Shown piece after piece: positions 10,407-14,115 of a stretch of DNA of 64,000 nt (positions are counted from its first letter, which is position 1; each line of letters begins with the position of its first letter). The DNA is from Verrucomicrobiales bacterium. Lineage in GTDB: Bacteria > Verrucomicrobiota > Verrucomicrobiia > Verrucomicrobiales > DEV007. The DNA lies in NCBI GenBank assembly GCA_029213065.1, contig JARGPH010000001.1, positions 310,001 through 374,000 of the forward strand, in the 5' to 3' direction. Position numbers and translations under genes: made by a program. The notes below the pieces were generated by a model, which worked only from the letters and a program-made list of their open reading frames with translations, was not told where the DNA came from and ran no database searches.

Positions 10407-11463
10407 CTAACCGACGACATCCTTTCGCAAATCGCGATAGGAATGTAGCTCGCCCCATCTCGCACCGCGCATTCGGCGCGCTCCGCTCGCACGCGTTGGA
10501 TCAGCTCGACCATTCGCCTGCTCGCGCAAAAACACCCCTTCGACAAAGCCGGCTGATCCTAAAATCGCGCCATCGCAAAAATACCTCACCCGGCAGCGAA
10601 GCGCTTCCGGTATCGTCATCGCCCCGCCTCGTTCCACAACTGCTTCGACCTTCTGACCCTCCATTCCGCGACGCGCCCCTTCACCTGTGATCTCATTCGC
10701 CTCGCGCGCCTCCCCTTCCTCATACAAAAACTGACGATACCGATTCATCGTCCGACGCCAATCGGTGCGCAGTTCATCATCACTCAGGCATTCCGCCATG
10801 ATCTGCCCTAATCCCTTTCGCGCGAGCTGCGCCCCACGCGTTCCTGAAATCGCTTCCGAGTAACCGCACCACCGGTAATCCTCAGGGCGCTTCACCAGCC
10901 CCGCCCTCACAGGATTGAGATCAATATAGGCGGCAACCGTCAGCAAAGCCATCTCGCTCCCCTCAATAAGAACGCTCTTGTAACGACCTTCCCAAAACGT
11001 CCCCCGACGTTTCAAGCGCTTGTTCATATAGCTCGTGATCCGCTGCTTGAACGACTTCATGAATTCCGACAACTTCCCTCGTCGCCTCTCATAGCGATCG
11101 AGAATCTCGCGGACATGACGGTCATCTCCCGCCGCATGCGCCCGCTCCAACTCCTGCCGTATCCCATCAACCACCAACGGCTCATACAATCCTTCCAGAT
11201 GTCCCAGAACCTCATCCTCCGAAAGCCGCTCGAGATCGCCTTCATCCGGAACCTCGATCAGGAGATGGAAATGCGGGGGTCGCCTTCGACTTGCCCATGA
11301 AGCAGTAGGTAACAACCCGAACGCCCAGGAACGCTTCCAACGACCGCATCATCTTCCTGAAAACCGCCTTATCCTTGTCTTTAAATACAATCTTCCGACC
11401 CACGACACGCGAGACACAGTGGTAAAACGATCGACCTTCCCCAAGCAAACGAGCAGTTCTCAT
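10407..11463 (-). pseudogene. REP-associated tyrosine transposase (RAYT, IS200-like), frame-disrupted
   Basis: Two minus-strand frames together give one Y1/HUH transposase. The N-terminal frame starts at the ATG at 11463 and reads MRTARLLGEGRSFYHCVSRV through VVTYCFMG. The protein continues in another frame as HFHLLIEVPDEGDLERL to the stop at 10407. Between the G of CFMG and the HFH (HUH metal-binding motif) lie 19 bases (about 11285-11303) where the family has only one codon (GNHFHLL). A net insertion of about 16 bases would explain both the frame change and the lost Asn. The C-terminal half is intact: YIDLNPVRAGLV, then the verrucomicrobial-type tail MTIPEALRCRVRYF and MRGARWGELHSYRDLRKD. 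RAYTs act on short palindromic REP sequences, and REP-like palindromes lie just upstream. The element is probably inactive unless frameshifting restores it. Confidence 0.82.
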
Positions 11464-11500: not shown

Positions 11501-11512
11501 TTCAATTCACTG

Positions 11513-11527
11513 TTTGTCTGTCCCTTA
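11513..11527 (+). repeat. 15-bp repeat, left copy (inverted relative to 13535-13549)
   Basis: TTTGTCTGTCCCTTA here is the exact reverse complement of the sequence at 13535-13549. The two copies bracket the RHS-tip and signal-peptide genes. They contain a GGGACAGAC core, similar to the TAGGGGACAC of the palindrome at 11662-11683, and are candidate recognition or end sequences for the adjacent RAYT. Confidence 0.75.
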
Positions 11528-11661
11528 GAACAACCGATGGTGACGCGACCGCTGACCGAATCAGGGCGCATGTCCCTTGCTCTTTGACCGGGGCTACTCC
11601 GCTCAATGCGACAGCCGTTTGATGGAAGAGTTTCCCCTTGAGTCAAGGAATGTTGCCTAAC

Positions 11662-11680
11662 CCCCTACGCTATTTAGGGG
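11662..11680. repeat. REP-like palindrome CCCCTA/TAGGGG
   Basis: CCCCTA (11662-11667) and TAGGGG (11675-11680) form a perfect six-base stem with a seven-base loop, followed by ACAC. On the minus strand the right arm supplies the last codons and stop of the gene ending at 11674 (TCCCCTAA). The size and the nearby RAYT fit a REP/BIME element. It could also act as a transcript-end hairpin for the minus-strand module. Confidence 0.5.
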
Positions 11681-12387
11681 ACACTTCCTTCACCACTGCC
11701 TTCCAATTCAATTGAAACAGCAGGTCGAAAAAATGAACTAAATGTAGACAGCACGTCTGCGGACGAATCTTTCGTTTTAAACAAAATCAACCCCTCATTG
11801 GGTAAGCACTCTAAATCTTCGCACTCTACTACAATAATTCTTTCAAGATACATTGATAGAAAAAGCGCGAATTCAGAAGCGCTACTGTTAGGCGTAATAT
11901 CCTCTGCTACTTCCTTCAGCTTCTTTACAAAGTGCCCTTCGAATTCACCTAAAAAAGGCTCAGGAAGTGCACTGGTCCAGATTTTAATGGTTCTAAATAA
12001 GGAAGTATTTCCCTCTTCCGAACCAGCACCCCAAAAAAACGCCCTTGGAACCAAAACGGCTCCCTTGGTAGAATTAGTATTACCGAATTTGCTCGTAAAA
12101 TCTTCTGCAAAAAACAATGGTCTTACTCCTTTTTCTCTGAAAACGGAGGCATTTACTCTCGCAAATTTTGAATGATCTTCAATTAAGGGGATACGATTTA
12201 TTTCACTATTGCTTAATGCTTTCAAAGACACATTGCCGTCCTCTTCAGTGCTGGCTTCAAAAATTGTCCAGACTAACAAAGAGTTATATTCGCTTGCGGT
12301 AATTCCAATTAGAGCGCGATCTTCTGTCCGGGCCACCACGCACGAGAATGATAAAGCAATCGTCGCAATTCCTAGAATGTGTCTCAT
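11674..12387 (-). CDS. Exported protein of unknown function, candidate immunity partner of the RHS tip
   Basis: A 237-residue protein starting with a typical signal peptide (about residues 1-20, hydrophobic core ILGIATIALSFSCVVA). I recognise no family. The mature part is mixed alpha/beta with an acidic C-terminus and no obvious catalytic motif. It starts six bases after the RHS-tip stop on the same strand, so the two are surely co-transcribed; this is the classic position of an immunity gene for a polymorphic toxin, and a periplasmic location would suit a toxin that acts there. The gene is clearly more AT-rich than the surrounding chromosome, suggesting recent transfer with the RHS tip. Its stop codon lies inside the palindromic repeat at 11662-11680, so the original C-terminus may have been cut. 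Immunity function is inferred from position only. Confidence 0.7.
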   Translation of the reverse strand: MRHILGIATIALSFSCVVARTEDRALIGITASEYNSLLVWTIFEASTEEDGNVSLKALSNSEINRIPLIEDHSKFARVNASVFREKGVRPLFFAEDFTSKFGNTNSTKGAVLVPRAFFWGAGSEEGNTSLFRTIKIWTSALPEPFLGEFEGHFVKKLKEVAEDITPNSSASEFALFLSMYLERIIVVECEDLECLPNEGLILFKTKDSSADVLSTFSSFFRPAVSIELEGSGEGSVP

Positions 12388-12393
12388 GATTTT

Positions 12394-13347
12394 TTAGCGA
12401 TCATTTTCAATGGCTGCGCAACAAAGCGCTTCAACAGCTTGAGCAATTTTCCCTAAAAATTCGCCCACAAAGATTTCCTTGTTACTCATAAACGGTATTG
12501 TGACAGGTCGAGTGAGTTCACTCATATCGACGCCTGAAGAGTGACAACACTGGAAAGTGACATGCCCTGCATCATCCGGAGTGCCATCAATAATGCTTTT
12601 CAGAGTATAATACCGGCCCTTGAAATTCCCCTTTGCGTCTCTCCTCCCGTTCGGCTCGACAAGTGGGCTATCGCCCCACCTTGATCCGTGTAAAACCAAA
12701 AAATAGTAGTCCGCACCTGATGAAAGCTGATTCTGCAAGGCCTCCAAAGTAAGCGGAGAATTCGCGCCATGTTCGACAATTTCATAATTATTCCAAGGGC
12801 ACGTTATACCTTCATTTCCATCTTCGAAGTTTTTAATTCCTTGAGCAATATATTTTTCGACATTTGCTTTCGAAGTTATTGGACTTGATGACAACCATGT
12901 CCACGGTGGCCCGCCATTCCCGCCGCCGTTGCGATTCGGAATCGCACTCGGTCCAGCTCCGTGGGGACCAAGAATAATCTTAAGTTTCTCATTCCCCTCG
13001 AGTAACCCCAGCAGATCAACATACCCAACCCCATCATTCCCGACGAACCCATACAAGTTCACCCCACCCCGTTCCTGGAAAGGATCCCTGGACGCCCACC
13101 TGCCAGTTTGCGGCATATAATATCTGAAGCCGTAATAACTCCAGCCGGTCGACTCTTCCACTGGCTTCGTCGAAAATCTCCAGGAATTCGTTTCGGCTTC
13201 AGCTCCAGTTGACTCGGTTACATTGCCAAAAGGGTCGTAGCTGTATGCCGCTTTCAACTCGCCTGCTTCATCGATTAACTGTCCGACATTTCCGTTGGCA
13301 TCATAAGCAGGATAACGATGTTCATCGCTCCCAGTAATCGCTAGCAA
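12394..13347 (-). CDS. 5'-truncated RHS-repeat protein with C-terminal caspase/CHAT-like domain
   Basis: The nominal start is a TTG at 13347 (317 residues), but RHS homology continues upstream in the same frame (NSYLYDGWNLLAEVEENHKS) to a stop at 13534-13536 that lies inside a 15-bp repeat. The usual 1000-plus residue RHS shell is therefore missing. Visible are the last YD repeats (YDANGNVGQLIDEAGELKAA, then SYDPFGNV) and the RHS-associated core RYYMPQTGRWASRDPF through NLYGFVGNDGVGYVDLLGL, after which polymorphic tips begin (about residue 115). The tip has two motifs in caspase order: YYFLVLHG (His220) and VTFQCCHSSG (Cys267/268), about 47 residues apart, each after a hydrophobic strand, as in the caspase/CHAT His-Cys dyad. 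I infer a peptidase toxin tip. Expression from such a fragment is uncertain. Confidence 0.8.
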   Translation of the reverse strand: MLAITGSDEHRYPAYDANGNVGQLIDEAGELKAAYSYDPFGNVTESTGAEAETNSWRFSTKPVEESTGWSYYGFRYYMPQTGRWASRDPFQERGGVNLYGFVGNDGVGYVDLLGLLEGNEKLKIILGPHGAGPSAIPNRNGGGNGGPPWTWLSSSPITSKANVEKYIAQGIKNFEDGNEGITCPWNNYEIVEHGANSPLTLEALQNQLSSGADYYFLVLHGSRWGDSPLVEPNGRRDAKGNFKGRYYTLKSIIDGTPDDAGHVTFQCCHSSGVDMSELTRPVTIPFMSNKEIFVGEFLGKIAQAVEALCCAAIENDR

Positions 13348-13534
13348 GCCGCCAACGCCGCCTGCTCCCTGAAGTGATCCGCTCAGGTCACGGCCCCAGG
13401 TGTAACATTGATGATGAATGAGGTGGGATTTATGATTTTCTTCGACTTCAGCAAGGAGGTTCCAGCCGTCGTAGAGGTATGAGTTTGAAGTTTTCAGTTG
13501 GAAGTTTTCAGTCTCGGTCTTGCGAGAGATGTTT

Positions 13535-13549
13535 TAAGGGACAGACAAA
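13535..13549 (-). repeat. 15-bp repeat, right copy, truncating the RHS gene
   Basis: TAAGGGACAGACAAA here is the exact reverse complement of 11513-11527. Read on the minus strand it contributes the in-frame TAA at 13534-13536, immediately before the surviving RHS reading frame. It therefore marks a breakpoint between RHS-derived and unrelated sequence. Just inside it, two GAAGTTTTCAG copies occur in the RHS remnant. Confidence 0.75.
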
Positions 13550-14115
13550 TAGTAAGATGTTGCCCAACAAATGAGCCACACCCCCTATAAAACGGCCATT
13601 CATCCGATATCATATTTCAATTGAATGGTCTGCTTTGTAAGGTTTTTGGGGAAGCTCGGCCATGAAAATATTTCAGCGATGGAGATTTACCTGTATGTCG
13701 CGGTAGGAACAAATGAGATTGGGGTGCAGAGTCAGCTCGATGCTCTGAGTGTTCCTGCGTCTGCCCGGTTCCACTGTTTGCAAGCTGTAGAATGGATTGC
13801 GGAATCCGCTCTTTACGCTGGCCCTTGAGAAACGCTCGAGGCAACTCACGCTACTCTTTTGCGCTCGACAAAGTGGAGGCAAGGTTGATTTGTCGCGGGA
13901 AGAATGGCCACGGGAAGTCTTCGAAACATTTCCCGCACAAAGACACGAAGCCACAAAGCGGGCAGGATTCAAAAGCTTCCGCCCGATGCGCTTGGAACCC
14001 ATTGTAGGACGGGTGAACCTCCCTCGAAGCGAGATGGCAACCAAGGCACCCGACCATCCGGCAGCTCAGCTTTTGCGCATTTTGTGCTTTTTTGCGGCGA
14101 ATTCCTTCAGAGCCT
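13550..14115. other. Non-coding stretch with degraded and repetitive sequence
   Basis: No reading frame here has protein-like composition or a recognisable product. The stretch includes low-complexity segments of a type that looks dispersed in such genomes, for example CACAAAGACACGAAGCCACAA (13935-13955 region) and the repeat at 14071-14098. It probably represents debris between the mobile island and the sulfatase gene. No promoter or RNA gene is evident. Confidence 0.5.
14071..14098 (+). repeat. Dispersed 28-bp repeat, copy 1
   Basis: A 28-base element beginning TTTTGCG and ending GCGGC. It matches the element at 36076-36103 at 22 of 28 positions with no gaps, and most differences are T/C. 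Both copies lie just beyond the stop codon of a minus-strand gene (here about 18 bases after the sulfatase stop). Confidence 0.6.

Follow-up and report, generated by a model that had tools for sequence, protein, structure and literature searches.

The locus lies within a 64,000-nucleotide stretch of a Verrucomicrobiales genome (contig JARGPH010000001.1), hereafter the window, in which an ORF of 317 aa occupies positions 12394-13347 on the minus strand. Together with the open frame above it and the genes and repeats on either side, the locus comprises the following features:

13530-13553, plus strand: REP-like repeat TGTTTTAAGGGACAGACAAATAGT, at the end of the RHS frame
13006-13539, minus strand: 3' portion of a 5'-truncated RHS core, ending ...VDLLG (TIGR03696, E 4.2e-22, and reading of the frame)
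12394-13005, minus strand: tip (toxin-like) domain of 203 aa plus stop, a predicted caspase-like cysteine peptidase
12682-12693, minus strand: LHGS motif with His220 (tip residue 106), the predicted catalytic His (from the sequence; kept in the relative)
12532-12549, minus strand: CCHSSG motif with Cys267/Cys268 (tip residues 153/154), Cys268 being the predicted nucleophile (from the sequence, the relative and alignment with the C14 Cys)
11674-12387, minus strand: 237-aa exported protein with an N-terminal signal peptide, a predicted immunity protein
11509-11532, minus strand: inverted copy of the REP-like repeat (92% complementary), beyond the other end of the tip-partner pair
10407-11463, minus strand: REP-associated tyrosine transposase in two frames (NF047646, E 1.7e-12, 47 bits, below the cut-off)

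The first-pass annotation had read the ORF as the C-terminal end of an RHS protein, and domain searches bear this out. The Rhs_assc_core domain (TIGR03696) covers residues 37-115 (E 4.2e-22; 78.5 bits against a cut-off of 32.5), an RHS repeat match falls at residues 15-52, and the core precedes a variable C-terminal tip of 203 aa, which is the layout of an RHS polymorphic toxin. The TTG at 13347 is a mechanical and unconvincing start. Upstream of it the same frame still encodes canonical RHS core (YLYDGWNLLAEVEE...TWGRDLSGSLQGAGGVGGLLAITG) until it meets a stop near 13542; no ATG, GTG or TTG occurs in that frame between 13347 and the stop, so the RHS gene is 5'-truncated. Since there is neither an N-terminal delivery domain nor a complete RHS shell, and no RHS sequence beyond the stop near 13542, the locus is classed as a 5'-truncated orphan RHS tip cassette and not as a complete toxin. 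The remaining RHS cores of this genome all lie in short frames too, and its collection of orphan tips looks like a store. In one of the other genomes an RHS tip array was seen (G051:C37:10409-20540), with five RHS cores on one strand within approximately 10 kb, each inside an open frame some 600 aa long.

The RHS frame, which extends to about 13539, is broken off at a REP-like repeat, and two inverted copies of this 24-bp repeat flank the tip and its downstream gene. The copy at 11509-11532 lies approximately 45 bp upstream of the REP-associated transposase gene, which is frameshifted; a relative of this transposase may have produced the repeats. The REP-like repeat (TGTTTTAAGGGACAGACAAAYAGT) is dispersed in the genome, with further near-identical copies at L108:4565, at L110:2661, 2684 and 3756, and at L112:2630. 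The repeats were considered as borders of a mobile toxin cassette, an idea rejected because other places in the genome have copies with no RHS gene; they are thus dispersed repeats, and mobilisation of the cassette is only a possibility. One copy is situated 87 bp past a second orphan RHS tip and its partner (L108:2491-4478, G000:C52). This tip has no Pfam match and overlaps the partner, a 259-aa signal-peptide gene, by 4 bases; the cassette is laid out as in the window, with an unrelated tip.

The tip itself (query P0001, window:12397-13005:-, 203 residues) gave no match when searched against Pfam, NCBIfam, PHROGs, PADLOC and PDB sequences, and matches to griffithsin were discarded as chance hits arising from a Gly/Ser-rich stretch. 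It is unique in its own genome, where no second copy was found. Relatives were sought in genomes of the family (75), order (387), class (384) and phylum (388), and 84,980 species were scanned with a sequence pattern. The sole relative recovered was in a Verrucomicrobiales MAG of a second genus (JAEUHH010000047.1, G016:C17), with 34% identity over residues 2-202; no further relatives were found in the 388 phylum and 384 class genomes, and none in plasmids, phages or viral contigs. The 68 identical positions out of 203 concentrate in the blocks CxWNNYE, PLT..ALQ, LHGS, CCHSSG and ALCCAA..ND, and the conserved residues include five Cys and three His (C69, H79, H106, C153, C154, H155, C195 and C196). 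At such a low overall identity, we infer that these blocks have the appearance of an active site.

The residues and positions given in the first reading of the sequence are correct: the strand YYFLVLHG terminates in His220, which precedes a Gly, and VTFQCCHSSG carries Cys267 and Cys268, 47 and 48 residues further on. The tip contains the hydrophobic strand, His-Gly and subsequent strand-x-Cys expected of a clan CD peptidase. The arrangement is above what would be expected by chance, as a pattern of a hydrophobic strand, HG, 38 to 58 residues, then strand-x-C occurred just once among 429 unrelated ORFs and never when these were reversed, versus ORFs of 26 of the 53 Peptidase_C14 or CHAT loci; both motifs are moreover kept in the sole relative.

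Reference sets of 29 Peptidase_C14 and 22 CHAT domains were gathered from relatives and their profiles compared with that of the tip and its relative. Against the C14 alignment the pair profile scored 26.3, with tip His106 and Cys154 (His220 and Cys268) set on the HG and CC dyad positions. None of 200 column shuffles and one of 200 block shuffles scored as high, and the reversed profile reached 15.2. The match to the CHAT profile was weaker (20.4, with six of 200 as high in each shuffle control). Single-sequence C14 scores stood only moderately above controls, being equalled or exceeded by 14 of 250 real-protein decoys for the tip and by 4 of 250 for the relative. A local Peptidase_C14 HMM did not detect the tip, and the Pfam search gave no match to the family HMMs PF00656 or PF12770. 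The tip is thus not filed under either Pfam family, though it may work like them.

AlphaFold2 was run once with the tip sequence by itself and once with its relative added, and the models were poor (mean pLDDT 51, pTM 0.54). Both models place the elements as strand-helix-strand-helix-strand(His)-helix-strand(Cys)-helix, which is the order of a caspase core and hence compatible with the proposed fold. No caspase or CHAT structure was among the listed Foldseek and VIA-align matches of either model; those listed were background alpha/beta folds such as prolyl-tRNA synthetase, CinA, AMPA receptor domains and SiaP, with Z below 8 or Foldseek E above 0.1. Models of such low confidence are insufficient to settle the fold of the tip, and they are too poor for the absence of caspases from the fold searches to carry weight.

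We favour, with moderate confidence, the reading of the tip as a caspase-like peptidase. The initial suggestion of a caspase dyad is partly supported: the order, spacing and conservation of the motifs, the predicted strand context and a C14 profile match that is weak but specific together make a dyad of the caspase type the best reading, whereas the low confidence of the models, the listed fold matches and the negative HMM search speak against it. The chief structural objection is the length of the tip. The C14 domains compared have approximately 75 to 100 residues past the Cys versus 49 after Cys268, so that the half beyond the catalytic Cys would be reduced.

This short segment, together with the negative C14 HMM search and a list of fold matches free of caspases, is what sustains the strongest alternative, which likewise sees a toxin-immunity cassette but would make the tip some other His/Cys enzyme, or a domain stabilised by metal or disulfides, outside clan CD. 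The conserved Cys and His residues could indeed form a metal site or disulfides. We nevertheless consider this alternative rather unlikely, as the order, spacing and strand context of the two motifs suit clan CD and the pair profile exceeds its shuffled controls against C14.

The gene below the tip was also correctly noted at first sight: it is co-oriented, encodes a signal peptide and lies directly downstream, its ATG beginning 6 bases past the tip stop. The exported partner has no match to a Pfam family. In the MAG that carries the related tip, a 249-aa signal-peptide gene follows 24 bases downstream. Direct BLASTP similarity between these two partners is not significant and their global alignment gives a z of about 3. 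On sequence similarity, the two are related through a third protein (G051:C521), which matches the window partner with a BLASTP E of 2e-6 over 210 residues and is colinear with the MAG partner at 20%. A profile built from the three proteins found the same three only among the 387 genomes of the order; two of these three genomes hold the tip, and in both the partner adjoins it. A rare tip thus stands beside a rare and conserved partner family in two genera, as in a toxin-immunity pair, which supports the likely assignment of tip and downstream gene as such a pair; the exported partner would then probably protect the cell that makes it.

The linking protein is encoded in an array of five small ORFs on one strand, mostly with signal-peptide-like starts (L111:34-3295, G051:C521). 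Two dissimilar ORFs of this array share their endings (QAAKGKGLQSSPAL / QAATGKGLQPSPAL), and this points to recombination within a locus of the polyimmunity type; the array resembles the heterogeneous polyimmunity loci named by Zhang et al. (2012; PMC3482391).

Downstream partners with such N-termini appear to be common in this bacterial family. By a simple hydrophobicity score, which is not a signal-peptide predictor, a strongly hydrophobic N-terminal segment was present in 11 of 14 ORFs downstream of RHS tips versus 11 of 50 window genes. This excess of exported or membrane-anchored partners suggests that many RHS toxins of the family act at the cell envelope.

For the cassette as a whole we favour, at somewhat better than an even chance, an orphan RHS tip with its immunity gene, in which the tip would be a caspase-like (clan CD) peptidase neutralised by the exported partner. 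A complete RHS protein that carried the tip, natively or through recombination, would release it into a neighbouring cell. There the tip would work as a cysteine peptidase of clan CD, its dyad formed by His220 and Cys268, while in kin the 237-aa exported protein would block it, either in the periplasm or at the cell envelope. The present gene, having no start codon and no N-terminal delivery part, is probably a silent reservoir cassette. A more specific proposal, that the tip is a minimal clan CD peptidase, reduced past the Cys, with exported immunity and antibacterial action in the periplasm of rivals, is tentative.

The intact frames of tip and partner (203 and 237 codons), and motifs kept against a relative of 34% identity, make it improbable that the locus is a decayed RHS remnant that no longer has a function and its motif an inherited relic, even though the start codon and N-terminal part are absent, the frame is cut at a REP-like repeat, the RHS cores of the genome are all in short frames and a frameshift interrupts the transposase gene close by. 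Polymorphic toxin systems normally include silent orphan tips, so the remnant reading is in any case compatible with a caspase-like peptidase as the role of the domain. A serine alpha/beta-hydrolase, in which LHG would serve as the oxyanion motif and C-H-S-S-G would form a variant of the nucleophile elbow, is very improbable and was rejected: LHGS and CHSSG are similar to HG and GxSxG motifs, but the tip in the window has no His anywhere after CHSSG and hence lacks the catalytic His of such an enzyme, too few residues follow CHSSG, and there is no Pfam match. An L,D-transpeptidase (YkuD) was likewise rejected, as on general knowledge its Cys motif and spacing differ.

Among known families, Peptidase_C14 (PF00656, including metacaspase-like members) shares with the tip the HG and C-C-(H/R) contexts, their spacing and a weak profile match, whereas the tip is undetected by single-sequence HMM search and its region past the catalytic Cys is much reduced. 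The CHAT family (PF12770) has colinear Thr-helix-strand-HG and strand-x-C contexts over 118 columns; its profile match is weaker (20.4), however, and its AC(D/E)TG motif is absent from the tip. At the level of the locus, the truncated core, the tip and the partner immediately downstream resemble orphan Rhs/CDI tip cassettes, from which the window cassette differs in the signal peptide on the partner and in its position between REP-like repeats.

The closest precedent is Tox-Caspase, described from comparative genomics as a caspase-like fold with conserved H and C, which occurs with RHS repeats and has the immunity partners Imm36 and Imm57; its members were considered mostly releasing peptidases, and likely toxins when C-terminal, and verrucomicrobia are absent from its phyletic list (Zhang et al., 2012; PMC3482391). 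Our tip resembles it in its C-terminal position, association with RHS repeats, order of H then C and predicted role as a toxin. It lacks HMM-level similarity to Peptidase_C14, is shorter after the Cys, and has an exported partner of no Pfam family in place of Imm36 or Imm57. As caspase-type RHS toxins were already predicted in 2012 (PMC3482391), the tip is not the possible new toxin class that the first-pass annotation envisaged; what is new here is an uncatalogued family of a probable caspase type, the kind itself being known. Caspase-like RHS toxin tips have been predicted from architecture (PMC3482391), and our literature search found none that had been studied biochemically. With tip and partner both intact, and a clear residue pair to mutate, the present locus is a convenient test case for them.
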